A DNA stretch of 64,000 nucleotides from Cryobacterium inferilacus (GTDB lineage: Bacteria > Actinomycetota > Actinomycetes > Actinomycetales > Microbacteriaceae): the NCBI RefSeq assembly GCF_019599185.1, contig NZ_JAIEUL010000019.1, positions 1-64,000 on the forward strand, written 5' to 3'. The notes beneath the pieces were generated by a model. The model searched no databases. It was given only the letters and a program-made list of their open reading frames with translations, and had not been told where the DNA came from. Both the position numbers and the translations under genes were made by a program. Position 1 is the stretch's first letter. Each line of letters starts with the position of its first letter. This document shows positions 1 through 42,518 of this stretch, one piece after another.

Positions 1-77
1 CCATCGATCGCGACCACCCCGAAACGCCCCAACCCGGCCTGCAAACACAACACCAAAACCTGGGCAAACAAGTCAGC
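1..77 (-). pseudogene. IS1182-family transposase, C-terminal-side fragment (continues off the left edge)
   Basis: Read on the minus strand from 77 down, the frame begins ADLFAQVLVLC and continues to a GVVAIDG motif, which is typical of the middle of IS1182-family transposases just before the catalytic core. The frame is open to the window edge. The missing N-terminal part is at 42159-42518 on the same strand, and the two share the 9 bp next to the break. I read this as the far half of one gene split by the large insertion at 78-42158. Confidence 0.8.
69..77. repeat. 9-bp target-site duplication, left copy
   Basis: The sequence caagtcagc directly precedes the TGTG start of the left terminal repeat and is found again directly after the right terminal repeat at 42159-42167. 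Collapsing the two copies rebuilds the IS1182 transposase frame. A 5-bp duplication (usual in the Tn552/Tn402 group) plus four chance matches is possible but less likely. Confidence 0.8.
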
Positions 78-126
78 TGTGACTTTCGGCGCTATATGGC
101 GGCGTTCTGTGATCGCTATTTGGCGC
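78..126. repeat. Left terminal inverted repeat of the large transposon
   Basis: The repeat begins TGTGACTTTCGGCGC and contains GGCGGCGTTCTGTGATCG. Over the first 38 positions, 31 match the right end (reverse complement of 42121-42158) and 32 match the internal end at 39260. Similarity to the internal copy extends to about 49 bp through a TGGCGC block, so this is a left-type end. Confidence 0.8.
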
Positions 127-168
127 ATTGACCTGGTTGCTCGTGTTGGCTCAGAGCGGGTAGACAGC

Positions 169-194
169 GTCTTGTATCCCATGGGATTCGAGAC
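169..194. repeat. Dyad-symmetric 26-bp site, resolvase-subsite-like
   Basis: The site runs from GTCTTGTATCC through a central CCATGGG to ATTCGAGAC and is nearly palindromic. Its reverse complement differs by only one base from the site at 1100-1125, so the two form an inverted pair around about 0.9 kb. Such dyads resemble subsites of serine-resolvase res loci, but no binding protein can be assigned. Confidence 0.5.
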
Positions 195-272
195 ATACAG
201 GTATCGCGACACGCCTGTTGGTGACGACCTCTAGTGCTGCGCCCTCAGAGAAGAGTTGCCCGCGCGAGTGCA

Positions 273-452
273 TTAGGTCTCGAGCTGCAAAATCTTACCT
301 ACTAGAGTCCCAAGTTCACCTTCAGGCTCCTGATCCAGCCACATCGAAAGCCCCCCCCCGCTCATCAGGGTGATGCACGCGGCGACAACCAGTACTCCAA
401 TCACGGCCATCAACCACCAGAGATTCCTGGATTGAGACTGTGGGTTCGACAT
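273..452 (-). CDS. Small single-pass membrane protein, 59 aa
   Basis: This short ORF runs from an ATG at 452 to a TAA at 275-273. The product has a polar N-terminus, one hydrophobic helix at about residues 11-30 (rich in W, L, V, I, A), a short Gly run and an acidic tail. It is divergent from the membrane-protein gene at 505. A homopolymer of nine G on the coding strand (351-359) encodes the Gly run, so slippage there would shift the frame. No family is recognised and no clear ribosome-binding site is visible, so coding status is only moderately supported. Confidence 0.45.
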   Translation of the reverse strand: MSNPQSQSRNLWWLMAVIGVLVVAACITLMSGGGLSMWLDQEPEGELGTLVGKILQLET

Positions 453-504
453 TCCATGACTCTACGCACATCTGCCGCTCGCACATGAGTGGGACACTCT
501 TGAC

Positions 505-927: not shown

Positions 928-1027
928 CACATCGTTAGCTGACCGCAACGTGGTGGCGCCTTTGGACGCCGCTCCGTTGCTGGTGAGAACGGACTGTAGC
1001 TTCGCGGCTGGATCGGTTTCGTCCGGC

Positions 1028-1054
1028 TGTCTCGTATCCGGACGATGCGAGACA
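1028..1054. repeat. Imperfect dyad, resolvase-site-like
   Basis: The site has arms TGTCTCGTAT and ATGCGAGACA around a CCGGACG centre. A further half-site, ATGCGAGACA, follows at about 1062-1071, and a full 26-bp dyad follows at 1100-1125. Several dyads sharing the half-site within 100 bp is the arrangement expected of a three-subsite res locus. It lacks a neighbouring intact recombinase; only a resolvase remnant at 39.5 kb is present. Confidence 0.5.
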
Positions 1055-1099
1055 GGTCTGGATGCGAGACAAATCACCTGTTGCTCATCGCCCGCCCGC

Positions 1100-1125
1100 G
1101 TCTCGAATCCCATGGGATACGAGAC
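1100..1125. repeat. 26-bp near-perfect palindrome, resolvase-subsite-like
   Basis: The site reads GTCTCGAATCC, CATG, GGATACGAGAC and is palindromic apart from one internal pair. Its reverse complement matches 169-194 at all but one position. With 1028-1054 it forms a cluster of GTCTCG half-sites. Confidence 0.5.
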
Positions 1126-1201
1126 ACGTAGGTTGCGAGTCACATTCGCATTTTGGATGGTATCCCATTGCTGATCGACACTAGTGAGGCCGCAAGGACT
1201 C

Positions 1202-1618: not shown

Positions 1619-1995
1619 TGATTCGGCCTGACGGATGAGGACCGGTGACAAGGCAACCTCCATCAACGTCGAGAAGTGCGAGCACTGTCACCCTAGCTCG
1701 CCAGGCGCACGATCAACGGATGCTTTACCTCAAGCTCCAAGTAGTTCGATACTCATGGCTCATGAGTCGCTTTGATTTGGAGACGCTGCCTGCGAATGTG
1801 TCGTGTAGTCGGATCAACCGAGAGCCCGCATGTCTACAGCGATGTGGTGGTCAGGGCCTCTTTTCGCTGTATTCCGAGTTCGGGGCCGTTTGAAACTATA
1901 TATGTATCTGGCTAGAACGCCCGAATCCGTGCCCGTCTGGCCGCCCGCTGACTGACGCGTGGTCGCATGTCGGTGGAGTCGACCTACACTCGAAC
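1619..1995. other. Intergenic stretch without a convincing gene
   Basis: Short ORFs here have low-complexity or shadow-like translations and no ribosome-binding sites. It includes an ACTCATGGCTCATGAGT inverted repeat near 1750. The right end leads into the umuDC promoter. Confidence 0.5.
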
Positions 1996-1999
1996 GCAT

Positions 2000-2015
2000 T
2001 CGAACACACGTTCGA
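2000..2015 (+). promoter_or_regulatory. LexA (SOS) box of umuDC
   Basis: TCGAACACACGTTCGA is a perfect match to the Gram-positive/actinobacterial LexA operator CGAAC-N4-GTTCG. It lies about 20 bp upstream of the umuD start, so the pair should be DNA-damage induced. Confidence 0.9.
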
Positions 2016-2034
2016 CTAAGTGAGGGAGGGCGAC

Positions 2035-2484
2035 GTGAGTGTCACCGTCGTGGACCGCATAGCCACACCCGCCGAGGAGGCCGTCTCCATCGCCTTCCTC
2101 GTCACCGGCGACGCGGTGGCCGCAGGCTTCCCATCGCCGGCGCAGGACTACTTCGACGGCTCTCTCGACCTCAACGACCACCTGATCCGAGACAAGACCT
2201 CGACCTTCATCGTCCGAGTGTCCGGCGAGAGCATGACCGGCGCCGGCATCAGCGACGGCGACGAGCTCGTGGTCGACCGATCGATCACACCCACGCACGG
2301 CAGCGTCGTCATCGCGATCCTGGACGGCGAGCTGACCGTCAAACGGCTCGAACTACACCGCGGGGGAGTAGTGCTGCGCGCCGAGAACCCCGACTACCCC
2401 CCAATCCTCGTCCCCGAGCTCAGCGACCTCCAGGTGTGGGGCGTCGTCACCGTCTGCCTTCACCGGCTCCACCGTGCGCTCTGA
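2035..2484 (+). CDS. umuD: UmuD-like S24 self-cleaving peptidase
   Basis: This is the accessory subunit of the translesion polymerase encoded next to it. After RecA-stimulated self-cleavage the processed form would bind UmuC. The product is 149 aa. An Ala-Gly cleavage site is at residues 30-31, the catalytic Ser is S66 in GESM and the catalytic Lys is K103. The GTG at 2035 is chosen because GAGGGAGGG precedes it at normal spacing; starting at 2020 would include that site in the gene. A LexA box lies just upstream, and the 3' end overlaps umuC. Carriage of umuDC is common on plasmids and integrative elements. Confidence 0.9.
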
Positions 2485-3769
2485 GCGGCGCATCGGCCTC
2501 ATCGACGTCAACAGTTTTTACGTTTCCTGCGAGCGGCTGTTCGATCCGAAGCTCAGCGGCCGGCCCGTCGTCGTCCTGTCCAACAACGACGGGTGTGTGG
2601 TCGCCCGGAGCGACGAGGTGAAGCAGCTCGGCATCGAGAACGGCACCCCCTGGTTCAAGATCGAACCCCTGATCCGCGCCGGCCGGCTCCCCGAGGTCAT
2701 CGCCCGCTCGAGCAACTACGAGCTGTACGGCGAGCTGTCCGCGCGCGTCATGGAGCTGCTGGGCCGGTACTCCGCCTGGCAGGAGGTGTACTCGATCGAT
2801 GAGAGCTTCGTCGGAGTCGACGGCGATGTGACGGAGCGGGAGAAGATCGGCCGAGCAATGCGCGCGGCCGTCGCGAAGAACGTCGGCCTGCCGGTGTGCG
2901 TCGGCTTCGGGCCGAGCAAGACTCTCGCGAAGTTCGTCAACAAGGGCGGGGCGAAGAAGCACCCGAGCCTCGGGGGAGTGTGCGATACCGACTGGTACAC
3001 CCCCGAGCAGATGGACGGCCTCATGGCCTCGCAACACGTCACCGAGCTGTGGGGCGTCGCCGGCCGCACCGCGAAGCGCCTCGCAGAGCTGAACATCCAC
3101 ACGATCCGCGACCTCCGCGACGCCGATCCCATCCTCATCCGCAAGAAGTTCTCCGTCGTCTTGCAGCGCTCCGTCTACGAGCTGCGCGGAATCGACTGCA
3201 TCCCGCTCGAGGCCGCACGCACGGTCCGGGACCAGCTGATCTTCTCGCGCTCGTTTTCCTCACCCGTGACGACGATCGCGGACATGGAACAGGTGCTCTC
3301 CGTCTACGCGCAGCGTGCCGCGCACCGCCTCCGAGCGCAGGGGTCGGTCACCAAGACGATGAGCGTGTTCGCGTCGACGTCGCCTTACGCCGACGCGCCC
3401 TACGAGTCCGCCGGCGGCATGGCCGGCTTCCCCGTCCCCACCGACGACCCGGTGACCATCGTCAAGGCCGCCACCGGCACCCTTGTGCCCAGGTTGCGCG
3501 AGGGTGCGCGCTACGTGCGCGCCGGCGTCATCCTCACCAACTTGTCTGCGAAGGGCTCTCACGCCCTGCTGGACGTGTTCGACAACGACTTCGACACCAA
3601 GGGCCTCGGCGCCACGATCGACGCCGTGACGAAGCGCCACGGCCGCTCCGCGGTCGGCCTTGGCCTCGCCGGCATCCGCAAAGGACCGGTGTGGACGATG
3701 AAACGCGATGCGCTGTCGCTGCGCGCGACAACGCACTGGGGAGAACTGGCAACCGCGCACGCACGGTGA
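2474..3769 (+). CDS. umuC: UmuC-like Y-family DNA polymerase
   Basis: This is the catalytic subunit of an error-prone, SOS-induced translesion polymerase (pol V type). The product is 431 aa, normal for UmuC. It has [12 protein letters not shown] with metal ligand D11, the palm motif SIDESF with D109 and E110, a helix-hairpin-helix region around residues 185-220 ([11 protein letters not shown]), and the DUF4113-type C-terminal region. It starts at a GTG overlapping umuD by 11 nt, so the two are translationally coupled under one SOS box. It would give the host or element a mutagenic damage response. Confidence 0.93.
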
Positions 3770-3795
3770 CCTCTGTCGGCTGCTCTCGCGCTGGG

Positions 3796-3809
3796 ATAGA
3801 ATGTTCTAT
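3796..3809. promoter_or_regulatory. Palindromic operator over the promoter of the antitoxin gene
   Basis: ATAGAA-TG-TTCTAT lies over the probable -10 region (TAGAAT) and next to the AGGAGG ribosome-binding site of the HTH gene at 3824. This placement fits autorepression by the antitoxin. Confidence 0.5.
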
Positions 3810-3823
3810 AGGAGGTGGTTGCC

Positions 3824-4273
3824 GTGTCGATCGCTGAGAGGCCCAATGGGGACACTGTTCGCCGGCTACGCAGCTTGCAGGTCGTAACCCGCGTGTCGTA
3901 CCTCCGCGCGTTGCGGACGGCGGCCGAAGGCACCACTCAGTCGCAGCTCGCCCGCGACATCGGCATCTCGCAGCCGTCGGTCAACAGTGCGTTGAAGTCT
4001 GCGGCCGCAGTGCCCGACGTGCGTCCCGGGTTCTCTGGCGCGACGCCCTACGAAATCGCCCAGCGCTACGACGCGGGAGAGCTGACACGGGAGCAAGTCA
4101 TCGATGAGCTCGGCCGCTGGCCGTATCGTCCAGGCTCGCCCAGCGATGGCTACGACTGGACCACCTTGGACCCGGGGGAGTTCGAGGAAGTAGGTCGCGC
4201 TCTCACTGAGCACCTGATCGACGCGGACGCGTACGACGAGATCCTTGACCGCTACAGCGAGCAAGGTCGGTGA
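3824..4273 (+). CDS. HTH antitoxin-like regulator paired with a zeta-type toxin
   Basis: The product is 149 aa, with an N-terminal helix-turn-helix at about residues 25-60 (QSQLARDIGISQPSVNSAL). The acidic C-terminal half (TREQVIDEL, EEVGRALTEHL) is probably the toxin-binding part. The GTG at 3824 is preferred to the one at 3815 because AGGAGG sits at 3810-3815. Its stop overlaps the GTG start of the next gene (GTGA), the usual coupling of toxin-antitoxin pairs. Actinobacterial zeta toxins are often preceded by XRE/HTH proteins of this kind. The partner toxin is truncated, so this may now be an orphan antitoxin. Confidence 0.65.
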   Translation: MSIAERPNGDTVRRLRSLQVVTRVSYLRALRTAAEGTTQSQLARDIGISQPSVNSALKSAAAVPDVRPGFSGATPYEIAQRYDAGELTREQVIDELGRWPYRPGSPSDGYDWTTLDPGEFEEVGRALTEHLIDADAYDEILDRYSEQGR

Positions 4274-4602
4274 CGGCGGAGGACTCGTCAGCGATCGCCG
4301 CGCACCGTGAGACGGTGCGCGCGTGGGCTCGGGCGGGAGGCCCACTGAGCCCTGCGAGTGAGCGCGCGACGGTCAACAACCGGGACTGGTTCACCCAGGA
4401 GTCGGATGGATCGGTCCAGCCTCGCGCTGCCCGCCGACTCATGCACGCCCGCCTCGTGAACGAGTACCGCGCTCACTTTCCCGACGTCCGCTCGGAGAAG
4501 AAGGCGATCATCCTCGCCGGCCCACCAGGAGCGGGAAAGTCGACAGTTCTCGCAGACGTGCTCGGCGCTCGCACTGGAAATCCCCATCGGAGCGCTCCGT
4601 AG
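4270..4602 (+). pseudogene. Truncated zeta-toxin (UDP-GlcNAc kinase-like) gene
   Basis: The first 100 residues match the N-terminal part of zeta/PezT-type kinases. A helical lead is followed by the P-loop AGPPGAGKST (about residues 83-92) right after a KKAIIL strand. Intact zeta toxins are 200-300 aa or longer, with catalytic Asp, Arg and Lys residues after the P-loop. Here the frame runs out about 10 residues past LADVLGAR and all of that is missing. The break is near 4573, where a run of unrelated sequence leads into the ABC permease gene, so it marks a deletion or recombination join. It is unlikely to be toxic. Confidence 0.7.
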
Positions 4603-4644: not shown

Positions 4645-6123
4645 ATGTACGGAACGTATCTGCGGCGAGAACTCGTCGGCCGCAAGAAGCAGACGATCAT
4701 CGTGGCCGCCGGCCTCGCGATCGCCATCGCACTCGTGATGATCGTGAACTCGCTCGCGGCAGGCGTGCGCGACGCGCAGGCGCAGGCCCTCGAGTCGGTC
4801 TACGGCGTCGGCACCGACCTGACGGTGACCGGTGCCATGCCCGAGCCCGGGGAGGGCGGCGGCCAGCGGTTCGACTTCGGCGAGGAGGGCGGCGCGACGG
4901 GCGAGGACGGCACGACCGAGCTCAGCCAGTCGCAGCTCGTCTCGGAGCCGATGCGCGCCACGCTCGACGCGAGCACCCTCGACACCGTGACCGCCGTTGA
5001 CGGCGTGTCGGCGGCATCCGCCACACTCAGCCTCACCAACATGACATTCTCGGGCGAGCTGCCGGCGGCCCCCGACGACACCACGACGACCGAAGGCGGC
5101 ACGCAGGGAACTCCGCCGCAAGGTGAGGGCGGAGGCGGCGGCTTCGGAGGCGGCTCGTTCGGCGTCGACTCGTTCACGGTGCTCGGCATCGACCCCACCT
5201 CGACCGCTGTCGGGCCGCTGTCGGCCGTCGAGATCAGCGACGGCCGCGCGCTCGAGAGCAGCGACGAGGGCGGGAACGTCGCCGTACTGGACGCGACCTA
5301 TGCTGCGACGGCCGAGGTCGTCGTGGGCGACACCATCGACATCGGCGGCGAGGACTTCGAGGTCGTCGGGCTCGTGGCATCGACCTCGGACGAGGCAGAC
5401 ACGGCGTCGAACGTGTACATTCCGCTCGATGTCGCTCAGACGCTCTCCGGCGTCGGCGCGGTCGTTTCGACCGTGTACGTACAGGCCGAATCGTCCGACG
5501 CGATCGCGGCCGTGCAGGCCGATCTCGAAGAGGCACTGCCCGACACCACGGTGAGCTCGCAGGCCGACCTCGCCTCGACCGTCTCCGGCTCGCTCTCCAG
5601 CGCCTCCTCGCTCATCACGAACCTCGGCACCTGGCTCTCGGTGATCGTGCTCGCCGTCGCGCTCGTGCTGGCCGTGCTGTTCACCATCTCGGGCGTCTCG
5701 CGCCGCACGCGCGAGTTCGGCACGCTCAAGGCGATCGGCTGGTCCAACGGACGCGTCGTCGGACAGGTCGCGGGCGAATCCGCGGTGCAGGGACTCCTCG
5801 GCGGCGTCGTGGGTCTGGTGCTCGGCTTCGCCGGCATCGTGGCGATCAACCTCATCTCGCCGACGATCTCGACGGCGGCCGCGGCCGAAACGTCGACCCA
5901 GGGCGGCCCCGGAGGCGCGGGCGGCGGTCCCGGCGACGGCGCGTTCGGCAACGCGGTCATGCAGCAGGGTTCTACCGACATCGTTCTGCAGGCACCCGTC
6001 ACCCTGTGGGTGATCGTGGCAGCCGTGGGCATCGCGGTGCTCGGCGGACTCGTCGCCGGTGCGTTCGGCGGATGGCGCGCGGCCCGGCTCAGCCCCGCCG
6101 AAGCGCTGCGATCGGTCGGGTGA
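4645..6123 (+). CDS. MacB/FtsX-type ABC transporter permease
   Basis: This is the membrane subunit of an export or mechanotransmission ABC system. The product is 492 aa with the family layout: one TM helix at about 17-37, a large extracytoplasmic domain, then three C-terminal TM helices at about 325-348, 373-400 and 450-475. The FtsX motif SRRTREFGTLKAIGWS is near residue 352. The periplasmic domain has long Gly/Glu-rich inserts (EGGGGGFGGGSFG and GGPGGAGGGPGDG) seen in actinobacterial versions. GGGAGGAG upstream supports the ATG at 4645. The partner ATPase follows within 80 bp. The substrate cannot be told. Confidence 0.85.
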   Translation: MYGTYLRRELVGRKKQTIIVAAGLAIAIALVMIVNSLAAGVRDAQAQALESVYGVGTDLTVTGAMPEPGEGGGQRFDFGEEGGATGEDGTTELSQSQLVSEPMRATLDASTLDTVTAVDGVSAASATLSLTNMTFSGELPAAPDDTTTTEGGTQGTPPQGEGGGGGFGGGSFGVDSFTVLGIDPTSTAVGPLSAVEISDGRALESSDEGGNVAVLDATYAATAEVVVGDTIDIGGEDFEVVGLVASTSDEADTASNVYIPLDVAQTLSGVGAVVSTVYVQAESSDAIAAVQADLEEALPDTTVSSQADLASTVSGSLSSASSLITNLGTWLSVIVLAVALVLAVLFTISGVSRRTREFGTLKAIGWSNGRVVGQVAGESAVQGLLGGVVGLVLGFAGIVAINLISPTISTAAAAETSTQGGPGGAGGGPGDGAFGNAVMQQGSTDIVLQAPVTLWVIVAAVGIAVLGGLVAGAFGGWRAARLSPAEALRSVG

Positions 6124-6202
6124 CGCGGCGATGACCGAGATCGCCCCGCCCGCTCTCACCAAGAAGCCGCTCACGAGCTTCACCACGACAGGAGACGAAG
6201 AC

Positions 6203-6928
6203 ATGACGATGATCGACACCGGCCCGGCCGGAGTGGGGGATGCCCCGACCGCGGCGCTCTACCGACTGACCGATGTGACACGCACCTATCGGCAGAAGCA
6301 GCGCGTGATCAAGGCGCTGACCGGTGTCGGGCTCGAGATCGGCGCCGGCGAGTTCGTCACGATCCAGGGCCCGACCGGTGGCGGCAAGTCCACGCTCCTG
6401 CAGCTTCTGGGAGCCCTCGACCGACCCTCGTCGGGCTCGGTGATGCTCGCGGGCACGGATCTTGCGAACGCCTCGGATGCCGAACTCGGGCGCGTCCGCG
6501 CGCGTGAGATCGGATTCGTGTTCCAGGGATTCAACCTGATCCCGACGCTGACCGCGGCGGAGAACGTCGACATGGCCCTCGAGCCGCTCGGTCTGCCGAA
6601 GGCGGAGCGTGCGACGCGCGTCGCCGAGGCGCTCGCGCACGTCGGCCTCGCCGACCGCACCGACCACAAGCCCACCGAGTTGTCAGGCGGTCAGCAGCAG
6701 CGTGTCGCGATCGCCCGCGCGATCGTGAAGCGCCCGCGCGTGCTCCTGGCCGACGAGCCGACCGGAAACCTCGACGAGAGTATGCGCGACGAGATCCTCG
6801 CCGTGCTGGAGGGGCTGTGCGCCGAGGGGCTCACGCTCATCGTCGTCACGCACGACTCGGCCGTCGCACGCCGCGCGCACCGCCGGCTCCGGCTCGACAA
6901 GGGAACCGTGCGAGACATCACGCGCTGA
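6203..6928 (+). CDS. MacB/LolD-type ABC transporter ATP-binding protein
   Basis: This is the cytoplasmic ATPase for the permease just upstream. The product is 241 aa with Walker A GPTGGGKST (56-64), a Q-loop in FVFQGFNLIP, the signature [14 protein letters not shown], Walker B VLLADEPTGNLDE and the H-loop VVTHD. This is the LolD/MacB set, including the TGNLD variant. The start at 6203 is preferred over 6131 because AGGAGA lies 7 nt upstream. The gene ends close before the HprK-like gene, with no obvious terminator between. Confidence 0.88.
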   Translation: MTMIDTGPAGVGDAPTAALYRLTDVTRTYRQKQRVIKALTGVGLEIGAGEFVTIQGPTGGGKSTLLQLLGALDRPSSGSVMLAGTDLANASDAELGRVRAREIGFVFQGFNLIPTLTAAENVDMALEPLGLPKAERATRVAEALAHVGLADRTDHKPTELSGGQQQRVAIARAIVKRPRVLLADEPTGNLDESMRDEILAVLEGLCAEGLTLIVVTHDSAVARRAHRRLRLDKGTVRDITR

Positions 6929-7104
6929 CGCAGGAGAGCTCCGAGGACTCTCCTCTCGCCACGACCACCTTCAACCCGGGGAGCAGGGCGCATCGCCGAC
7001 CGCGACGCGCCCTGCTTCTCGCCGTCGACGACGTCCGGTCGGGCGATGGGGTCGAGATCGCACGCGGACGGGGTATCGGTGGGCGGTTCAGTACAGTAGC
7101 CGGT

Positions 7105-8220
7105 GTGCCACATGACCCGTTGATCAGCGCCCTCGGCGCGGTCATCCGCATCGATGTGTCGGCGCTCGATGCGGCCGACGCCGCTGAGGTCGCGCGAGTG
7201 TGGGCCGACGCCGCGCCATCCTCGTCCGACGGGTCGATCCCCGTCGACGTCACCGTGGTGGCGCCCGCAGGGGTGCCGATCGAACGCCTGCTGTCCTCGC
7301 TCTCCAAGCGCGTCACGCTCGCCGCGATCGAGGCCAGGCGCGGCGAGGCATGGATGCTGCACGCAGCGGGCATCGCCGACGAGCGAGGACATGTCGTCGT
7401 CGTCATCGGGCCATCGGGTCGCGGAAAGACGACGGCGGTGCGGGCGCTGGCGCAACGCTACGGCTACGTCACCGACGAGACGATAGCCATCGATGGATCC
7501 GGACGCGTGCAGCCGTACCGCAAGCCGCTGTCGATCATCGAAGGCGCGGTGGCCGTCAAGGCGCAGCGTCCGCCGGGCGAGCTCGGCCTGGGCGCTCTGC
7601 CGGCGCCGCAACTGCGAGTGGCTGCGCTCGTCCTGCTGGATCGACGCCCCGACGGGCCCGACGTGCCTATGCTCGAGGAGTGCGATCTGGGCGACGTGCT
7701 CGGCGAGCTCGTGGAGCAGACCAGCTACCTCGCAGATCTGCCCCACCCGCTGCGGACGATTGCGGCGCTGGCGGCATCCGTCGGCGGTATTCACCGTGTC
7801 GTCTACCGTGAGGCGACGAGCCTCGTCGAAGGGCTCGCCCCGCTCTTTCGCGATCCTGACGCGATCGTCATCGATGTGAGCGAGACCGGTGAGCCGCAGG
7901 CTGACGGCGGGGAACGCACGTCGAAGCACAGAATGACAACCGGTCTTTTTCGCGGGGCCTATCTCGATGCTCTTGTCCTGGACCACCCCCGTCGGGTGGC
8001 ATTGCTGCAGCCGGACACCGACGAGGGGGCGATCCTGCGGGTGATCAGCGGCATCGGGCCGACGTTGTGGAGCGACGCCACGGGGCGTTCGGACGAAGAG
8101 CTGGTATCGGTCGTCGTGCGGGCGCACGGCGAGCCGGCGGAATCGGATGCCGCGTCCGCCGTCGCGGCGGCGATCGCTGAGCTCAGCGCGCACGGCGTGG
8201 TGGTGCGGCGACAGGACTGA
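7105..8220 (+). CDS. HPr-kinase-like P-loop protein (HprK-related) at the head of the glycan locus
   Basis: The product is about 371 aa. A P-loop GPSGRGKTT (102-110) is preceded by a WMLHAAGI strand-helix and followed by RYGYVTDETIAIDGSGRV, the HprK/PEPCK-like layout in which an acidic segment follows the nucleotide site. The rest is not recognised. The GTG at 7105 follows a TACAGT -10-like box at about 12 bp, so translation may be leaderless. HprK-related kinases recur with PqqD-like and NTP_transf_5 proteins (the HPr-rel-A group, and tailoring kinases of some lasso-peptide clusters). Both partners are present here (16099 and 11479). The target is unknown. Confidence 0.65.
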   Translation: MPHDPLISALGAVIRIDVSALDAADAAEVARVWADAAPSSSDGSIPVDVTVVAPAGVPIERLLSSLSKRVTLAAIEARRGEAWMLHAAGIADERGHVVVVIGPSGRGKTTAVRALAQRYGYVTDETIAIDGSGRVQPYRKPLSIIEGAVAVKAQRPPGELGLGALPAPQLRVAALVLLDRRPDGPDVPMLEECDLGDVLGELVEQTSYLADLPHPLRTIAALAASVGGIHRVVYREATSLVEGLAPLFRDPDAIVIDVSETGEPQADGGERTSKHRMTTGLFRGAYLDALVLDHPRRVALLQPDTDEGAILRVISGIGPTLWSDATGRSDEELVSVVVRAHGEPAESDAASAVAAAIAELSAHGVVVRRQD

Positions 8221-16607: not shown

Positions 16608-17705
16608 ATGACACGGGGGAAGATCGCGCTGGGGCGTGTGACGATCGCCGCCAATAACGGCGCCATCGCGGGTGGCGAGGTGATGCTGCTGAACATCGCG
16701 CGCGCCTGCGAGGAACTCGGCGTCGACACGGTCGTCGTCGGCCCGTCGCACTCGTCGGACCTGGTCGATGCGGCGCGTGAGGCGGGGCATCGCACAGTGG
16801 TCCTCGAGGCGAGCACCCGCAGGGAGTGGATGCGGGCGCTGCGCCGGTGGGACCGGGATCAGCGCGAGGGACTGCTGTGGTGCAACGGGCTCGTGGCGGC
16901 GATCGCGACGACGGGGCACCCCGATCGGATCGTGCACGTGCACTCGACGGTGGCCCCTGCACGCAAGGCAGCGCTGTCGATCGCCCGTCTCGGCGCGCTC
17001 GCGACCGTCGTGCCGTCGACCTCTATGCGCCGGGACGTGCGCGCAGCGGATGTCTTCCCGAACTGGGTCCGGCCCATCGAGCGCCGCAACCGAGAACGCC
17101 GCTCCGACGAGGCATTCGTCGTGGGATATCTCGGCCGCATCTCGGTGGATAAGGGCGTGCCGATTCTGGCCGGCGCGCTGGGGCGGCTGGAGCAGTCGCA
17201 TCCCGGCCGGTTCCGCCTGCTCCTGGCCGGCGATGGCCGTTTCGTCTCGCAGCGCGATCAGCGTGCGGTGGAAACAGCCCTCGAGCCGCTCGACGGGCTC
17301 GTCGAGCGGCTCGGCTGGATTGAGCCGACGGAGTTCTTCGACCGCGTCGATCTGATCGTCTGCCCGTCGGTGTGGGCCGAGCCGTTCGGTCTGGTGGCCG
17401 CCGAGGCGATGGCGACGCGGACACCGCTGCTGGTGAGCGACGCGGGGGCGCTGCCCGAAGTCGTCGGGGGAGATGACGCCGTCATCGTCGCTGCCGGAGA
17501 CGTGAATGCCTTGGCCGCGGCGATCCTCGATCGTGCCGACGGCGTGGGCGACGCCGCCGCAGCCGTGCAGGCGGGGTTCGCGCGGTGGGAGGCGGAGTTC
17601 TCGCCGGAGGCCGGTCGGGAGCGCACCCGGCGACTTCTCGCCGGGCTGGGAAGGATGCAGCCGGAGGTCGGCTATCCCGAGGCCGCGGACGTCGGCCACG
17701 AATAG
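16608..17705 (+). CDS. GT4-family glycosyltransferase
   Basis: The product is 365 aa with a GT-B fold. It has the acceptor-side motif GAIAGGEVMLLNIAR, then VVGYLGRISVDKG and the donor-site pattern AEPFGLVAAEAMATRTPLLVSDAGALPEVV with paired Glu. It adds a sugar to the growing repeat unit. A TAGTAT box at about 16535 may be its -10. A 16-codon ORF at 16549 sits between that box and the gene. The 3' end overlaps the convergent polymerase gene by 34 nt. Confidence 0.85.
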   Translation: MTRGKIALGRVTIAANNGAIAGGEVMLLNIARACEELGVDTVVVGPSHSSDLVDAAREAGHRTVVLEASTRREWMRALRRWDRDQREGLLWCNGLVAAIATTGHPDRIVHVHSTVAPARKAALSIARLGALATVVPSTSMRRDVRAADVFPNWVRPIERRNRERRSDEAFVVGYLGRISVDKGVPILAGALGRLEQSHPGRFRLLLAGDGRFVSQRDQRAVETALEPLDGLVERLGWIEPTEFFDRVDLIVCPSVWAEPFGLVAAEAMATRTPLLVSDAGALPEVVGGDDAVIVAAGDVNALAAAILDRADGVGDAAAAVQAGFARWEAEFSPEAGRERTRRLLAGLGRMQPEVGYPEAADVGHE

Positions 17706-18802: not shown

Positions 18803-19055
18803 GCGGTCGCCCGAGACTGCCTGCGCGCAGGCGTGTGATGCAGGGAGCACGTCGGGACACCTCCCAGAGCGGAACGGACGATCGGCAACGGCTGTGAGTC
18901 TACTGGGGCGGTCTTCGCGCGTACGTGACACATGTGCGCCAGCCCGCGTGGGGACCCACCGTGCGTGCTGGTAGTGTGTAGTCGAGCTTTGAAATGTCCG
19001 TAAGTGCGCGCTCTCTGGGGAGAGCGTCCTGTTCTTGAGAGGTCACGGCCGTGCC

Positions 19056-31559: not shown

Positions 31560-33355
31560 GTGAGTCTGCCCAGTTCGACGAGGTGGCGGAACTCTGCGTT
31601 GCGCTCGCTGAGGCTCGACATGTCTCCTTCGGCGGCGATGCGACCGTCGGACATGAAGACGATCCGATCCGCGTTCTTGACGGTCGACAGCCGGTGGGCA
31701 ACGACCAGGATCGTCATACGACCCTTCAGCGCATCGATGGTCTCTGCGATCTGCGCTTCCGTGGCGTTGTCGAGGGCCGACGTCGCCTCATCGAGCACGA
31801 GCACGGCAGGACGCCGGTACAGCGCTCGGGCAATGCCGATGCGCTGCCGCTGACCACCCGACAGGCGCACGCCGCGCTCGCCCACTCGGGTGTCGAGACC
31901 CTGGTCGAGTGCGGCGATGAACGACGTGAGCTGCGCCGAGGCGAGAGCCTCTTGGATGGCGATTTCGTCGATGTCCTCGTCCGGCACGCCGAAGGCGATG
32001 TTCTGCCGAAGCGTCCCGTCGAAGAGGAAGACATCCTGCGACACCATGCCCAGGGAGTCGAACCACGTCTGGGGATCGTCGTAGATCGAGCGGCCGCCGC
32101 TGAGGATCTGGCCCGAGGTGGGGGTGAGCAGTCCCAGCACGAGGTCGAGAAGCGTGCTCTTGCCCGCTCCACTGGATCCGACGAACGCGGTCATCTCGCC
32201 GGAGCGCACGATCGTCGTCACGCCGCGGAGGATCTGTTCGTCGGAGTCGGGATAGGCGAACACGACGTCGTCGATGACGATGTCTCCGCGGTGCGCTTCG
32301 ATCGACAGCCGCTCCTCTTGATGCGGTGTGTGCTGCCCGAATTCCTCGATCTCGGCCACGAGGAGCTTCATGCCGGCCTCGCCCGCTCGAATGCTCGTCA
32401 TCATCGCCGATACCTGGTTCATCGTCGGCAGCAGCCGCACCGAGGCCACTGCGAACAGACCGAGCACAGAGAGGGCGGTCGCACTCGACGACGTCGCGAA
32501 CAGGAGGACGGTGAGCAGGATGATCGTCAGGATGAACACGATCTCGAGCGCGTAGCGGGGAAGCTCGCTCATGAGAGTGAAGCTGCGCGCCGCGTGAGCG
32601 CGAGCGGTCCGGGCGGCCCGGTACCGCTGGACATAGGCGCCGGCCAGAGCGGCGATCCGCGTGTCGCGGAACCCCTCCAGGCTGGGCGTCACCACACGCC
32701 ACCCTGCGACGTCAGCGGCAGCGACACGGTCGCCGATCGCCAGCTGCCGCGACTTGAGCAGCGCCTGGATGCCGAGGGTCGCCGAGGCGAACACGGTGAT
32801 CGCGACGATCGTCGCGAGGGGCGAGACGATCAGGAGCACGGCGGCGATGCCGACGACGGTGATGAGGTTCGACAACAGGGTCACCAGGCCGGTGAGCACT
32901 CGGCCGAACGTCTCGTCGATGGACATGCCGAGATTGCGGTAGATGGCCGGGAGGGCGCGCATTCGATGGGTCGAGTACGGAGAGAGCAGGTAGGCGCGCA
33001 GCAGCTCGCTCGCCGTATCGGCGGCGAGCTGATTGATCCGCCCGAGCAGCCACCAGCGGAAGGCGATCGATACGACGCTCTTCAGGATGAACGCTGCGGC
33101 GATGAGAGACCCGCACAAGATGATCAGGGTCTGCATGTCGTCCGTGCCGAAGAACCCGGCGAGCCATCCGCCGTACGTCCCGGATGTGCCGTTGGTCAGC
33201 AGATCGAGCAGGGGCAGCATCGCCGCGACGCCGAGCATGTCGAGGGCGGCCAGCAGCACCGAGCCGAGCACGGCGCCCACGAGCCAGCCCCGGTGCCGCC
33301 CCGGCAGCAACGACATCGCGATCCGCAGGTGTTCCAACAGGTTGGAAAGCTTCAT
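31556..33355 (-). CDS. ABC exporter, PglK/MsbA-like, probable lipid-linked glycan flippase
   Basis: The product is about 599 aa with a six-helix membrane domain (about 1-330) and a C-terminal ATPase: Walker A FVGSSGAGKST, Q-loop VSQDVFLFDGTLRQNI, signature LSGGQRQRIGIARAL, Walker B VLVLDEATSALD and the H-loop VAHRLSTV. Single-polypeptide exporters of this type flip lipid-linked oligosaccharides (PglK) or lipids. ATG 33355 overlaps the previous stop by 4 nt. No Wzx is seen in the window, so this is the candidate flippase for the locus. Confidence 0.85.
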   Translation of the reverse strand: MKLSNLLEHLRIAMSLLPGRHRGWLVGAVLGSVLLAALDMLGVAAMLPLLDLLTNGTSGTYGGWLAGFFGTDDMQTLIILCGSLIAAAFILKSVVSIAFRWWLLGRINQLAADTASELLRAYLLSPYSTHRMRALPAIYRNLGMSIDETFGRVLTGLVTLLSNLITVVGIAAVLLIVSPLATIVAITVFASATLGIQALLKSRQLAIGDRVAAADVAGWRVVTPSLEGFRDTRIAALAGAYVQRYRAARTARAHAARSFTLMSELPRYALEIVFILTIILLTVLLFATSSSATALSVLGLFAVASVRLLPTMNQVSAMMTSIRAGEAGMKLLVAEIEEFGQHTPHQEERLSIEAHRGDIVIDDVVFAYPDSDEQILRGVTTIVRSGEMTAFVGSSGAGKSTLLDLVLGLLTPTSGQILSGGRSIYDDPQTWFDSLGMVSQDVFLFDGTLRQNIAFGVPDEDIDEIAIQEALASAQLTSFIAALDQGLDTRVGERGVRLSGGQRQRIGIARALYRRPAVLVLDEATSALDNATEAQIAETIDALKGRMTILVVAHRLSTVKNADRIVFMSDGRIAAEGDMSSLSERNAEFRHLVELGRLT

Positions 33356-34530
33356 CTCCGCCTTGCCTCTCGCTCTTCCCGCGCGCGGACGCATGCCGAC
33401 AACGTCCGGCGGGCCCACTCATCCCAGTTGAGATCGCTCGCCCAGCGGGCGCGCGCGGCCTCGCTCAGCCGCGACCGGAAGGCCGGGTCGGCGAACGGCG
33501 GGAGGGCTTCGGCCGCCGCCTCTGCGAGTTCGTGCGGCGAGTCCGTGTCGGCGCCGACGAGCACTCCCGTCTCATCGTCTCGGACGATGCTCGCGACGCC
33601 GCCCACGTTCGCGGCGATCACCGGCAGGCCGTGGGCTGCCGCATCGGTGAGGGTCACGCCGGCGGCGTTGGCGCTGGTGAGTTCGAGCAGCACATCGGCG
33701 CGAGCGTATTCGGCGCTGAGCGCGGCGGGATCGAGCCGTCCTCGTGCCCGACACCACTCCGGCAGGCCCGCCGGCGCATCCCCGACGATGGTGAGAACGA
33801 CCTGTGTTCCCCGGTCCTGCGCTCGCCGCACGGCCTCGACGGCGACATCGCCGCCCTTGCGGTGCCAGTCGCTCGCGACCAGCAGCGCGTTGAGCACGTG
33901 CGGCGCGGAGTCCTCGCGCGTCGGAGCCGTGAGCGGCTCGATGCCCGGTCCGGTCGGCGCGAGCACGCACTGATGCGTCCCGACGGCGTAATCGCGCACC
34001 AGCGAATCGATCGCCCACTGCGACGATGCGACGAACACATCGGTCGCCCGGGTCGAGCGTTCGGCGATGATCTCGGCCTGCAGCGACGAAAGCGGATGCA
34101 GATTGCTGAACATCGGGTAGAAGCCGCGAATCGCTGCGAAGGTCGCATCCGATACCTGTACGACCGGCACGCCGACGTCTCCGAGGAACGCGAGATCGGT
34201 CGACGCGACGACGCCGAGCACCACGTCAGGAGCGGCCGCGCGGATGCGGCGGCGCACCGAGCGGCCGCGCGCGATCGCCGTCGCCAGACCGAAGCCCCAC
34301 AGGTAGCTGCGGCTGCTGACGGCGCCGAGCAGCCGCGCAGCGCCTCGATCGAGCAGCGAGGTCGGCTGCTGGGCGGTCGAGAGGGGAACGACGTCGGCCA
34401 CATCGCTGAGTGCGGCGACGATCAGCGGAATCATCCCCGACCAGGCGTCGGGGTCATCCAGACGCCAGGGGGTGACCACGGCGATGCGCAGGCGATTGCT
34501 CTCGGGCTCGGTGTGAGGAGGTATTCGCAT
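33352..34530 (-). CDS. GT4-like glycosyltransferase
   Basis: The product is 392 aa. It has RIAVVTPWRLDDPDAWSGM (acceptor loop), VQVSDATF, and VASSQWAIDSLVRDYAV between domains. The donor side has ALLVASDWHRKGGDVAVEAV and VLLELTSANAAGVTLTDAAAHGLPVIAANVGG, where Thr/Asp replace the usual Glu pair. ATG 34530 follows GAGGGA at about 8 nt; longer in-frame starts exist. It is the first gene of the minus-strand operon with the exporter and the bifunctional GT (ATGA overlaps). Confidence 0.78.
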   Translation of the reverse strand: MRIPPHTEPESNRLRIAVVTPWRLDDPDAWSGMIPLIVAALSDVADVVPLSTAQQPTSLLDRGAARLLGAVSSRSYLWGFGLATAIARGRSVRRRIRAAAPDVVLGVVASTDLAFLGDVGVPVVQVSDATFAAIRGFYPMFSNLHPLSSLQAEIIAERSTRATDVFVASSQWAIDSLVRDYAVGTHQCVLAPTGPGIEPLTAPTREDSAPHVLNALLVASDWHRKGGDVAVEAVRRAQDRGTQVVLTIVGDAPAGLPEWCRARGRLDPAALSAEYARADVLLELTSANAAGVTLTDAAAHGLPVIAANVGGVASIVRDDETGVLVGADTDSPHELAEAAAEALPPFADPAFRSRLSEAARARWASDLNWDEWARRTLSACVRAREEREARRR

Positions 34531-35814: not shown

Positions 35815-35829
35815 GCGCGGGCGGTGCGG

Positions 35830-38903: not shown

Positions 38904-38944
38904 GCCGTGCGGAGCGGCATCCGTCATACCGCTAATCTGACCGA

Positions 38945-39214
38945 GTGACCATCGGGGACCGTCTGTCGTCGCGCGACAACGCGTTGAACTTCGTTCGCCT
39001 CGCGCTCGCGGCCACCGTCATCGTCAGTCACGCATGGCCCGTCGGCGGCTTCGGCGATTCTCCGGTCGTCGGGCTCGGAGGCTGGGCGGTCGACGGCTTC
39101 TTCGTCCTCTCGGGTTACCTCATCGCCGGGTCGAGGATGCGAAACGCGTTCTCCCGGCTGGCCTGGCGCGCGGGCCGTCTATTGGTGCAAAACCGATCGG
39201 TTTTGCACCAATAG
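38945..39214 (+). pseudogene. Truncated acyltransferase-3 family gene
   Basis: The first 78 residues match Acyl_transf_3 membrane acyltransferases: RDNALNFVRLALAATVIVSHA with the first helix and the conserved His, then GWAVDGFFVLSGYLIAGS. Intact family members have 350 or more residues and about ten helices. The frame is cut at about 39178, where a 36-bp perfect palindrome begins, and stops at 39214. The gene was probably an O-acetyltransferase that decorated the glycan before insertion of the transposition module or a neighbouring IS broke it. GTG 38945 follows TAATCT. Confidence 0.8.
39179..39214. repeat. 36-bp perfect palindrome at the acyltransferase break
   Basis: Arms of 18 bp (starting CTATTGGTGCAAAACCGA) meet with no spacer and are fully self-complementary. 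It starts exactly where homology to the acyltransferase ends and lies 45 bp left of the end-like repeat at 39260. A joined pair of IS terminal repeats or a palindromic insertion target would both look like this; no T-tract follows. Confidence 0.65.
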
Positions 39215-39259
39215 GGTGTCTTTCCCCGAGGTGCCGGAATCTCGCGGGTCGGCTTGGTG

Positions 39260-39308
39260 TGTGATTTTTAGCGCTTTGTGGCGGCGTTCTGTGCTCGCTA
39301 GGTGGCGC
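39260..39308. repeat. Internal left-type terminal repeat of the transposition module
   Basis: TGTGATTTTTAGCGC followed by GGCGGCGTTCTGTG matches the left end at 78 in 32 of the first 38 positions and extends through TGGCGC to about 49 bp. It faces the right end at 42158 and delimits a 2.9-kb core. Its left flank (gtcggcttgg) does not match the right flank, so the 2.9-kb core did not insert here alone with that right end. Confidence 0.75.
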
Positions 39309-39515
39309 TTCGCGTTGCTTGTCCATGTCAATTGCGAGCGAACCTCAGCGACATGTCCCACGAGGTCACGTCCCGTGCAGTTGCTGGGGACTGCCTCCAT
39401 TCCCGGCCGCCAAATCGTCGCTCGGGTCCTCACAATGTGAGCGGAATTGTGTGCAGACATCAGTGTTTCGGCGGGTGGCCGAATATCTTTTTCCTGATCT
39501 CGGCTGAAATTCATC

Positions 39516-39911
39516 TTGCTCAAACTGTTGACGAAAGCTCTTGAGACAGGTTCACTCGAAGTGGGGGAAGCAATGGTGCTCCGCCATATGAAGAGCATCT
39601 CGGATGGCATCGACCCGTCGACGACCTCGGGCCGGCTGATGCTGAACATGCTCGCCACTTTGGCCGAGTACGAACGCGAGCTGATTACCGAACGGGTGAA
39701 CGCAGGAATCACAGCCGCCCGAGAAGGCGGCACCAAGTTTGGTCGGCCTCTGTCTGATCCCGTGGTCGTAGCCGACAAACTCAAGCTCGTCACGGAGGCC
39801 CGGGCGAAGGGCCGGACTGCGGAGGATGCGGCAAGGCTCGTCGGGTGGAGCCGGGCCACCCTGTACCGGCATCAGCAGGCCGTCGCGGCGCGCGAGAGCA
39901 CCACCGTGTAG
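39516..39911 (+). pseudogene. Serine-recombinase (resolvase) C-terminal remnant
   Basis: The readable protein is 131 aa. It has SISDGIDPSTTSGRLMLNML, LAEYERELITERVNAGI and FGRPLSD, the conserved second half of the resolvase/invertase catalytic domain, followed by a DNA-binding helix-turn-helix (TAEDAARLVGWSRATLYRHQ). The N-terminal part with the catalytic Ser and its conserved Arg residues is missing. The DNA upstream (39309-39515) shows no recognisable rest. A truncated resolvase means cointegrates of this element may not be resolved by its own enzyme. Confidence 0.75.
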
Positions 39912-39918
39912 GTGACTT

Positions 39919-41304
39919 GTGGACGCGGCCGAGCGGTGGCGTATTCTTCGGCTGTATGTCGAAGACCAGATCCCGCTCGCGGTCCTCGCCCGGGAGACCG
40001 GGATCTCTGCACGGACCCTGCAGCGCTGGAATCGGCTCTACCGCACTGGCGGCGTCGCGTCCCTGGACCTGCACGCGCGCATAGACAAGGGTGTCCGCCG
40101 AACTTCGGTCGAGACGGTCGCGTTCATCGAACGGTTGGCGCTCACTCGGCCGCGCCCGAGTCTCGCCACGCTGCACCGTCTCGCTGCCACCGATGCTCAA
40201 GCGCGTGAGCTGCCGGAGCCGAGCTATGCGACCGTGAGGGAGATCGTGCAAGCTCTCGATCCGGCCCTTGTCACCCTGGCACTCGAGGGGCCGATCTCGT
40301 ACCGGGATAAGCACGAGCTCGTCTTCCGGCGCCGCGCTGAACACCCCAACCAGACCTGGCAGTCCGACCACACCGAACTCGACATTCTCATCGTCGGCGC
40401 CGACGGGAAACCTGACCGGCCATGGCTGACCACCGTGATGGACGACCACTCCCGCGCCGTCTGCGGGTACATGGTCTTCACCGGCGCCCCCTCAGCCATC
40501 AACACTGCCCTGGCTCTTCGGCAGGCGATCTGGCGGAAGACCGACCCGGCCTGGGCGATGTGTGGAATCCCGGACATCCTGCACGTCGACCACGGATCCG
40601 ACTTCATCAGCGACCATATCGAACGAACTGCCGTCGCCCTGCACATCAGGATCATCCACTCGACCATTGGCCGACCCCAAGGACGAGGAAAGATCGAGCG
40701 GTTCTTCGGCACCGTCAACACCGAACTCCTGGCCGCCCTACCTGGCCATCTCGGGCCCGGCAGCCGGACTCCGACGCCTGTCATCGACCTCGCCGGGCTC
40801 GACCGTGCGATCGGCGAATTCATCGGCGCCTACAACGACCGGACCCACAGCGAGTTGGGCATCTCCCCGCGAGACGCTTGGGTAGCCGGTGGGTGGCTGC
40901 CTCGGATGCCCGACAGCCTTCAAGAACTCGACGGCCTGCTCCTCACCGTTCCGAAAAACCGGGTCGTGCAACGTGACGGGATCCACTTCCAGGGCCAGCG
41001 CTACCTCGCCCCCACTCTTGCCCCGTTCGTCGGGCACACCATCACCATCCGGTACGACCCCCGCGACATCTCCGAGATCCGCGTGTACGACCGGGATACC
41101 TTCATCTGCACCGCGATCGACGAAGCCCACCCCAACCTCAGGCTCAGCCTCCGTGACATCGAAACCGCCCGCCGGGCCCGCCGCAAGCAACTGCGCCGAG
41201 CCATCAACGACCGCATCCCAACCGTTGCCACCCGGGAAGAACCCCGCACCCCCGAACCCACGAAGCGGCGGCCGAAGCTGCGCACCTACGAAGAGGACGA
41301 GTGA
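39919..41304 (+). CDS. TniA/Mu-type DDE transposase
   Basis: The 461-aa product has an N-terminal HTH (about 7-60), an rve/DDE catalytic core with D150 (QSDHTELD), D224 (LHVDHGSDF) and E260 (GRGKIERFF, 35 residues later), and a C-terminal Mu-type beta-barrel (about 340-420, VVQRDGIHFQGQRYLAP). This is the architecture of TniA/TnsB-like transposases of the Tn552/Tn402/Mu group. It would cut and join the TGTG...CACA ends. GTG 39919 begins 8 nt after the resolvase stop. It overlaps the ATPase gene by 4 nt. Confidence 0.9.
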   Translation: MDAAERWRILRLYVEDQIPLAVLARETGISARTLQRWNRLYRTGGVASLDLHARIDKGVRRTSVETVAFIERLALTRPRPSLATLHRLAATDAQARELPEPSYATVREIVQALDPALVTLALEGPISYRDKHELVFRRRAEHPNQTWQSDHTELDILIVGADGKPDRPWLTTVMDDHSRAVCGYMVFTGAPSAINTALALRQAIWRKTDPAWAMCGIPDILHVDHGSDFISDHIERTAVALHIRIIHSTIGRPQGRGKIERFFGTVNTELLAALPGHLGPGSRTPTPVIDLAGLDRAIGEFIGAYNDRTHSELGISPRDAWVAGGWLPRMPDSLQELDGLLLTVPKNRVVQRDGIHFQGQRYLAPTLAPFVGHTITIRYDPRDISEIRVYDRDTFICTAIDEAHPNLRLSLRDIETARRARRKQLRRAINDRIPTVATREEPRTPEPTKRRPKLRTYEEDE

Positions 41305-42110
41305 TGAACCAAGCATTCATCGTCACCAAAGAACACCGGCGCTTCGCCGAATTCGCCAACGCTGTCCGCAAGGAAAAGACGATCGGAATCTGCCACGGCG
41401 CCGCCGGCGTCGGAAAAACCAACTCCGCTCGCCGTTACGCAAACTGGGACGCCCTTGAGCCCTACATCACCGAATGGGGGCCCCGCGGGGACCACGATGC
41501 AAAGTTCTACGCCCTCGCGAACCGATCCCGAACCGTCTTCTACACACCCGAAGTCCTCTGCCGACCAAAAGACCTCATGCACGACATCGACTACTGGCAG
41601 ATCAAAGTCGGCATCTGCGCCGACCAGCACATCCACGCCAACGAACCGCCCCCACGAAAGATGGGAGACATGACCCGCCACGTTGAGCTGCTCATCATCG
41701 ACGAAGCCGAACGACTCACCCCAACCGCGCTCGAGATGCTCCGTGACAGACACGACCGAACCCACCTGGCAATGATCCTTATCGGAATGCCGGGAATCGA
41801 CGAACGATTCCGCCACTACCCCCAGCTCTACAGCCGGCTCGGATTCTCACACCACTACCGTGCCCTCGGACGCGAAGAACTCCTCTTTGTCCTCGACCGC
41901 CACTGGACACGACTCGGCAGGACACTCGACCCTGACGACTTCACAGACGCGCAAGCCATCGCCGCCATCGAACGCATCACCCGCGGCAACTTCCGCCTCC
42001 TCGAACGACTCTTCCCTCAGATCAACCGCGTCCTCAAGATCAACCAACTGGACACCATCACGGACGACGTCATCGAAGCCGCCGCCAGCATCCTCGTCAT
42101 CGGCAACTAG
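41301..42110 (+). CDS. TniB/MuB-like AAA ATPase for target capture
   Basis: The 269-aa product has Walker A GAAGVGKTNS (33-42), Walker B LLIIDEAERL (130-139, D134-E135) and a sensor region MILIGMPGIDERF, then a helical C-terminus that ends ITDDVIEAAASIL. This is the AAA_22/TniB pattern. Such ATPases bind target DNA and recruit the transposase. It overlaps tniA (GTGATG). The gene stops 11 nt before the terminal repeat region, so the core is compact. Confidence 0.88.
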   Translation: MMNQAFIVTKEHRRFAEFANAVRKEKTIGICHGAAGVGKTNSARRYANWDALEPYITEWGPRGDHDAKFYALANRSRTVFYTPEVLCRPKDLMHDIDYWQIKVGICADQHIHANEPPPRKMGDMTRHVELLIIDEAERLTPTALEMLRDRHDRTHLAMILIGMPGIDERFRHYPQLYSRLGFSHHYRALGREELLFVLDRHWTRLGRTLDPDDFTDAQAIAAIERITRGNFRLLERLFPQINRVLKINQLDTITDDVIEAAASILVIGN

Positions 42111-42120
42111 CGACACGAAA

Positions 42121-42158
42121 CGATCACAGAACACCGCCAAAAAGCGCCAAACTCCACA
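42121..42158. repeat. Right terminal inverted repeat of the large transposon
   Basis: Reading inward on the minus strand from 42158: TGTGGAGTTTGGCGC, then GGCGGTGTTCTGTGATCG. It is followed outward by caagtcagc, the duplicated target, and then the split IS1182 gene. Confidence 0.8.
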
Positions 42159-42518
42159 CAAGTCAGCCATCACACCTTCATGCTGCTGCCGAAAACGACA
42201 CAACACCGTGTGATCAGGCACGTCCTGCGCGCACAACACCCGGAACGCAACGTCCTCCGAACACGCCCGCTCAATCACCCGAGACGAACTGATTCCCCGA
42301 GCCGAGGCATACAACCACAAGCCCAAAAGCATCTCCGGGTCATACCCCTCACGGCCCGTGCCACCGCGCCGCGAGGCCGCATGTAAAGCGCTCGTGTCCA
42401 AGGCGGCGACCACGTCCAGAATGAACCACGCCAAATGATCCTCGGACAACCAATCCCGCATATCCGGCGGCACCAAAAACAACTGATCACGCTCGACAGG
42501 ACGATAGTTCAGGGCCAT
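42159..42518 (-). pseudogene. IS1182-family transposase, N-terminal fragment
   Basis: The frame starts with MALNYRPVERDQLFLVPP at 42518 and continues through LSEDHLAWFILDVV, GREGYDPEMLLGLWLYA and CRFRQQHEGVMADL, the conserved IS1182 N-terminal region (DUF772). It ends abruptly at 42159-42167, where the transposon inserts. The continuing half is at 1-77. The DNA to its right (42519-42727) holds the IS end and the promoter of the siderophore operon and shows no further gene. Confidence 0.85.

Follow-up and report, generated by a model that had tools for sequence, protein, structure and literature searches.

We analysed the first 64 kb (hereafter the window; NZ_JAIEUL010000019.1, positions 1 to 64,000) of contig C10 (72,423 bp) from the 4.0 Mb genome of Cryobacterium inferilacus, assembled in 75 contigs, and found that a surface-glycan locus in it lies inside a 42-kb element that is bounded by two related transposon ends and interrupts an IS1182 transposase gene. 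The element is probably a composite Tn552-like transposon, in which the right end, R1, paired with a distant left end, L1, skipped a nearer left end, L2, and was inserted together with the whole 42,081 bp in the IS1182 gene. Surface-glycan loci have a bearing on sensitivity to phages and on contacts between cells, and the means by which they are exchanged between bacteria is seldom visible; here the boundaries, the target duplication and the empty chromosomal site can all be read.

Boundaries and chromosomal target site

The element spans positions 78-42158, from the left end L1 (78-118, +) to the right end R1 (42118-42158, -), both located with an end pattern and by alignment of the ends. A first-pass annotation, made from the letters alone, had proposed related terminal repeats at 78 and 42158, and our alignment reproduced the agreement in 31 of 38 columns, with TGTGACTTTCGG... 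opening at 78 on the forward strand and its partner closing at 42158 on the reverse strand. The end pattern, allowing up to three mismatches, gave three matches in the 64 kb against none in 100 shuffles, the third being the left-type end L2 at 39260 (+). The identical 9-bp flank claimed for both ends was also recovered (69-77 = 42159-42167 = CAAGTCAGC), and for two left-type ends and one right-type end a 9/9 match is expected by chance with a probability of about 2 x 4^-9 = 8e-6 (by arithmetic). The insertion is real and well bounded. The L1 region is related to two further sequences, namely our own contig C24 (86% over positions 75-212) and the left end of the mer transposon of C. arcticum (85% over 117 bp, positions 77-192).

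The two flanks are parts of a single IS1182 transposase gene on the reverse strand. The left flank (1-77) holds an inner part of the gene with one 9-bp copy and is 76% identical to the IS1182 of contig C73 over 79 columns, and the right flank (42159-42518) holds the N-terminal part (120 aa) with the second copy. Against the IS1182 family model NF033551 this N-terminal part scores 109 bits (E 3e-31) along its 120 aa, which is under the whole-protein cut-off, as a fragment would give. Once the flanks are rejoined minus one 9-bp copy, the frame runs on as ...VMADLFAQVLVLCLQAGLGRFGVVAID and is colinear with the intact 513-aa IS1182 transposase on C73 of the same genome, as the first-pass annotation had predicted for excision. 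Its statement that both halves of the gene lie outside the ends holds in that both sides of one frame are present, but just 77 bases remain on the left, and the C-terminal part was not found in the assembly, where the C73 protein as query matched C73 alone; a missing half identical to that of C73 would have collapsed into C73 during assembly. The suggested search for an uninterrupted copy in relatives was negative in 299 family genomes, few being Cryobacterium, and the sole relative of this IS1182 in that search was the C73 copy of its own genome, at 80%.

Beyond the gene, an IS1182 terminal repeat, CTATAGAGCGTGTTG, is found at 42572-42586 (-) and is mirrored by CTATAGAGCCTGTTG at C75:150134, and conserved chromosome follows at 42712-45888 (+), comprising a FecCD iron-uptake gene and the next genes. 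In the nine best-matching Cryobacterium relatives fetched, the two chromosomal flanks are adjacent and the element is absent: homology to the window begins at 42,709-42,712 in eight and at 42,789 in one, and is directly preceded by a conserved stretch of about 15 kb, which in L162 is without its last 0.7 kb. The same stretch lies in this genome at C75:143098-149923, close to the end of that contig (150250). Read along the chromosome, the 42-kb element is thus nested in IS1182, which in turn has chromosomal DNA on either side, and some 1 kb of IS1182 between C75 and C10 is not in the assembly.

Transposition module, internal left end and relatives

The right part of the element contains a transposition module preceded by the internal left end L2 (39260-39300, +), which agrees with L1 in 35 of 41 positions and with R1 in 32 of 41, and which aligns with the ends of relatives from its first base. 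Its outer flank, GGCTTGGTG, differs from the flank of R1, so that the IS1182 insertion was made by the pair L1-R1; L2 and R1 together would make a 2.9-kb unit adjoining the glycan locus. The module ends with a DDE transposase of the TniA/p480 type (39919-41304, +; 461 aa), carrying rve and Mu-transpos_C domains and having TnsB as its best solved relative (7svw, E 6e-41), and directly downstream an AAA ATPase of the TniB/p271 type (41301-42110, +; 269 aa) that aligns weakly with TnsC (E 1.3e-4). No other place in this genome matches the transposase protein. This transposase type, the ATPase directly downstream and the 9-bp duplication are those of a Tn552-like branch.

In front of the transposase lies the C-terminal remnant of a serine resolvase gene (39516-39911, +), whose homology to relatives starts at 39589 and whose N-terminal half is missing; among the matches listed, nothing in the fetched sequences corresponds to 39313-39588. 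A recombinase gene of about 597-603 bp occupies the same place in all seven plasmid relatives read. Since only the C-terminal part of the resolvase is left, this copy is a decayed derivative of the Tn552-like actinobacterial branch and no intact member. Together, L2 and the truncation at 39589 point to a composite and not to a simple single transposon. The first-pass annotation, which saw one Tn552/Mu-like transposon inside an IS1182 gene, was right about the kind of element, its bounds and its place, and has to be amended in view of L2, the truncated resolvase and a cargo from several sources (see below).

To the left of L2 there is a truncated 5' fragment of an acyltransferase gene (38945-39214, +), and between this fragment and L2, about 50 bp from the latter, a perfect 26-bp palindrome (GGTGCAAAACCGATCGGTTTTGCACC, 39184-39209) with a shape that may be res-like. 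A Microbacterium proteolyticum plasmid matches the palindrome region at 90%, with eight places in its record; no owner of the palindrome was found, the one place viewed lying among ordinary genes. Another putative res-like site, at 1020-1142 (+), consists of a palindrome around CCCATGGG with more repeats, and a half-site resembling it is found near 168-194.

In order to place the element in its group, we took the best 80 of 141 transposase relatives from a scan of one genome per species and paired the end-like sequences by their flanks in 95 fetched loci and the window (142 pairs, some places being fetched twice). Perfect 9/9 flanks were found in 23 distinct relatives, against 0.0005 expected by chance, which indicates that this actinobacterial Tn552-like branch duplicates 9 bp; among the loci that gave no flank pair are some on short contigs and some with diverged ends. 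The group is widespread in Actinobacteria. Its flank-confirmed members measure 4,800 to 13,261 bp, so that 42.1 kb is large for it, as the first-pass annotation had it, with the reservation that most loci reached just 10 kb upstream and larger elements could escape. A search for very large relatives found the end pattern in 15 of 27 whole genomes or records, and end matches on the same contig were at most about 17 kb apart, except for an extra end on the plasmid of Cryobacterium sp. LW097. Seven plasmid transposase relatives (H1, H2, H3, H5, H10, H12 and H18) were read in context, from 40 listed of 4675 records; a 9/9 flank is present in three (L097, L187, L189) and in none of the other four (L186, L188, L190, L191).

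Members of this branch adjoin serine resolvase genes more often than control pieces do. In nine of the 23 relatives a foreign gene of this kind is found no more than 800 bp beyond the element, on the left side in eight (L097, L187, L025, L027, L061, L081, L017, L047) and on the right side in one (L040), compared with 0/92 control pieces taken from further out; two of the nine are sources of the query proteins. The habit is similar to that of the res-site hunters Tn5053, Tn402 and Tn552, with another duplication length. The target of the present copy is the IS1182 gene, and no resolvase gene was seen in the 77 and 800 bp outside the element.

The closest relative is a 5,596-bp mercury element on plasmid pP27867_2 of C. 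arcticum PAMC 27867 (L274; NZ_CP016284.1:35311-40906), which is flanked on both sides by GTATTCGAC and is 97.8% identical to the right part of our element over 2,570 bp. We read this plasmid over 14-45 kb, where a further left-type end at 22354 (39/41) is followed by a sugar-uptake and sugar-metabolism operon and then by the mercury element, so that two left ends, at distances of 5.6 and 18.6 kb, lie opposite a single right end. Such an arrangement could give rise to the 42-kb form; on this plasmid the near end is the one in use. On the LW097 plasmid (L275) two left-type ends likewise face one right end, at 4.5 and 6.6 kb, and no end pair has a matching flank; six end-like sequences surround one transposase module at 112849-146187 of this plasmid, which would fit a rearranged or multi-end element.

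Contig C24 of our own genome (L093/L094; 31.5 kb) appears plasmid-like, with a ParA-like and a resolvase-like gene, both read by eye. It has a left-type end at 30621 and a right-type end at 3133, the latter 98% identical to R1 over 51 bp; the flanks of these ends differ (GCTCGAAGC / TCTATCGGG) and no transposase match was found on the contig. That C24 supplied a resolvase in trans is speculation.

Cargo and proposed history

The cargo is a mosaic drawn, as judged from sequence similarity, from several sources. At its left is a umuDC module (1896-4568, +; UmuD 2020-2484, UmuC 2474-3769, weak helix-turn-helix match 3815-4273) that is 94% identical to a plasmid of Rathayibacter festucae (NZ_CP047181.1:440-3113); the match ends at 4568, and on that plasmid a zeta-toxin gene comes after the module. 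A MacB/FtsX-type ABC permease, an ABC ATPase and an AAA protein follow (4645-8220, +), and parts of the permease and ATPase (4654-6110, 6343-6888) are 70-73% identical to three other Cryobacterium loci compared.

The surface-glycan locus itself (9463-38903) was recognised by family-model matches and contains a signal peptidase, glycosyltransferases of the GT1/GT4, GT2 and GT11 families, a nucleotidyltransferase, an epimerase, a Wzy_C-type polymerase/ligase (17672-18931), a tyrosine autokinase (19035-20525), a low-molecular-weight phosphatase (20525-21103), a NeuB-SAF-sugar isomerase fusion (24804-27050) and an MsbA-like exporter (31556-33418). Judging by these genes, its acquisition may change the surface polymer. 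The fusion is one 748-aa protein with a weak CBS match followed by NeuB, SAF and a xylose-isomerase-like TIM barrel; full-length relatives occur in nine genomes of other genera, at 71-76% amino-acid identity, and a further relative, at 47%, lies in an Ensifer replicon. Many genes of the locus are shared with loci of these nine genomes, from five other Microbacteriaceae genera. Six of the genes in the 16.6-27.0 kb run, namely a glycosyltransferase, the polymerase, the autokinase, the phosphatase, a GT2 and the NeuB fusion, each have a relative in all nine, being collinear and on the same relative strands in four (G045, G352, G401, G096), while in the other five some of the best matches lie elsewhere. 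Only one weak end-like match (26/41) was found in 18 stretches around these nine loci, which are thus not visibly transposon-borne.

At the DNA level the left 20 kb has some match in each of 57 Cryobacterium genomes, and from 9.4 kb onwards the glycan part gave just short pieces of 66-74% among the matches listed. Of these 57 genomes, only the present one has the NeuB fusion, apart from one with a 34% relative. On plasmids, 24.8 kb of the glycan locus matched three records by megablast, in pieces of at most 102 bp, and the NeuB fusion reached less than 60% in each of its 102 record matches. Of the 35 frames selected between 505 and 39214, the 31 scanned (all except those at 4270, 16099, 23947 and 27412) gave no match to a transposase or integrase family (Pfam, E 0.001).

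In our proposal, a transposase module with the near left end L2 (39260) and R1 (42158) would have stood beside the glycan locus, with L1 (78), another left end of this group, beyond the locus, probably on a plasmid. The transposase would then have joined R1 with the distant L1, passing over L2, and the 42,081 bp would have been inserted in an IS1182 transposase gene already beside the chromosomal iron-uptake operon, duplicating 9 bp. The ends, the duplication, the interrupted frame, the nested chromosomal order, the internal L2, the truncated resolvase and the mosaic cargo are directly visible. That L1 and R1 already enclosed the cargo when the jump took place is suggested by the scanned frames, which hold no other mobility genes, and by the similarity of the umuDC module to plasmid DNA; the cargo may have been gathered on a plasmid, L1 may derive from another copy, and resolution would have occurred by a resolvase in trans or by homologous recombination. 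We also suggest, tentatively and at slightly less than even confidence, that this was a case of end-skipping capture, in which the transposase passed over its own left end, at 2.9 kb, in favour of a related one 42 kb away, so that about 39 kb of bystander DNA became cargo in one jump; L2 would be a fossil of this route and pP27867_2 the stage before. The two left ends opposite a single right end on this plasmid indicate that the postulated precursor arrangement exists in nature.

Several observations weigh against this history. With L1 only 77 bp from the start of C10 and some 1 kb of IS1182 absent from the assembly, the left junction is not spanned; a second copy of the 42-kb unit was not found; the resolvase gene beside the transposase is broken; the largest flank-confirmed relative has 13.3 kb; and in pP27867_2 it is the near pair that has a 9/9 flank, the far pair having 2/9. 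The signal from composition, which the first-pass annotation had proposed to compare with the flanks, is also modest: tetranucleotide correlation with the host is 0.57-0.67 for glycan segments and 0.72 for umuDC/ABC, and host stretches gave 0.79-0.82 in four cases but 0.61 in a fifth, as low as the cargo, so that the glycan part is mildly foreign and the umuDC/ABC part hardly so. The 9-bp duplication dates the ends only; interior cargo may have been gained later, and a mosaic cargo fits stepwise gain in place as well. A small L1-R1 element could accordingly have entered the IS1182 gene first, with the umuDC, ABC and glycan genes added later by recombination with plasmid or donor DNA and never moved by the transposon, and the resolvase break at 39589 does mark some later rearrangement. 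We regard this course of events as unlikely, though worth serious attention: an extra end facing R1, delimiting a unit beside the glycan locus, is not simply predicted by later replacement, the scanned frames are free of transposase and integrase matches, and the umuDC module has its close relative on a plasmid.

The start of the contig at base 1 and the missing part of the IS1182 copy could also be explained by an assembly chimera, two unrelated stretches having been joined at a repeat near base 1, and related glycan loci on large contigs of other genera, apparently chromosomal, could be taken to mean that the locus is ancestral at this place, with the transposon ends as unrelated insertions on either side. 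The adjacent flanks in relatives and the mirrored IS1182 ends argue against both. A chimera is very improbable, given the independent agreement of the 9/9 flank, the IS1182 frame that continues across the joined flanks, and the synteny of C75 and C10. An ancestral locus is hardly credible at all, as it is absent between the adjacent flanks of nine relatives, 55 of the 56 other Cryobacterium genomes sampled lack the NeuB fusion (the remaining one having the 34% relative) and the common 9-bp flank would be a coincidence.

If the composite transposon arose as we propose, the internal left end offers a concrete and testable route from a 5-kb to a 42-kb transposon, and in our view the route of cargo capture is the interesting part; end-skipping, if true, might allow small transposons quite generally to take up entire pathways. 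Outside the element, the window also holds Thoeris-type defence genes at 51096-52926 (-), encoding a ThsA macro-domain protein (PF20016), a ThsB TIR protein (PF08937) and a HIT-domain protein, with a GC content of 0.59-0.62 across 50-56 kb around them.

Comparison with known systems

The mercury transposon of pP27867_2 has the same type of left end, the nearly identical block of resolvase C-terminus, transposase, ATPase and right end, a 9-bp duplication and, as here, its cargo between the left end and the resolvase. It differs in its size of 5.6 kb, in its mercury genes and in its full-length resolvase gene. Staphylococcal Tn552 is a replicative 6.55-kb transposon with the p480 and p271 transposition genes, a serine resolvase, a beta-lactamase cargo and inverted repeats of about 120 bp, which inserts in plasmid res sites and for which target repeats of 6 bp, and of 10 bp at res sites, are reported (PMC3276174). 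With 9 bp, our element departs from the 6-bp target repeats of Tn552 in the strict sense as given there (PMC3276174), and our terminal comparison covered the outer 38-41 bp.

Tn5053/Tn402 elements share TniA/TniB-type proteins and a resolvase with ours and are characterised by tniQ, 25-bp ends and 5-bp repeats (PMC7765201), in contrast to the 9-bp repeats found here. No match to TniQ, TnsA or TnsD was obtained among the scanned proteins, that is, the 31 left frames together with the resolvase, transposase and ATPase frames (Pfam, E 0.001). The same absence from the proteins scanned separates the element from Tn7-like transposons, with which it has in common a related DDE transposase and a large cargo; the medians quoted for these are 14-29 kb and the longest is 140 kb (PMC8649781). 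Another transposon was set aside as a comparison, being IS481-type (PMC6794481).

A surface-polysaccharide locus has been regarded as a mobile unit before. The capsule locus of Haemophilus influenzae was reportedly described by Kroll et al. in 1991 as a compound transposon, the ends of which are said to be two insertion-sequence copies, whereas the present element has one transposase module and unequal left ends. In the open-access literature we found neither the element itself nor any Tn552-like transposon with a glycan locus described. The large cargo of Tn7-like elements and the H. influenzae capsule precedent limit the novelty: the element is a very large composite variant of a known, Tn552-like kind of transposon, and what is new in it are the internal left end L2, the truncated resolvase and the mosaic cargo.

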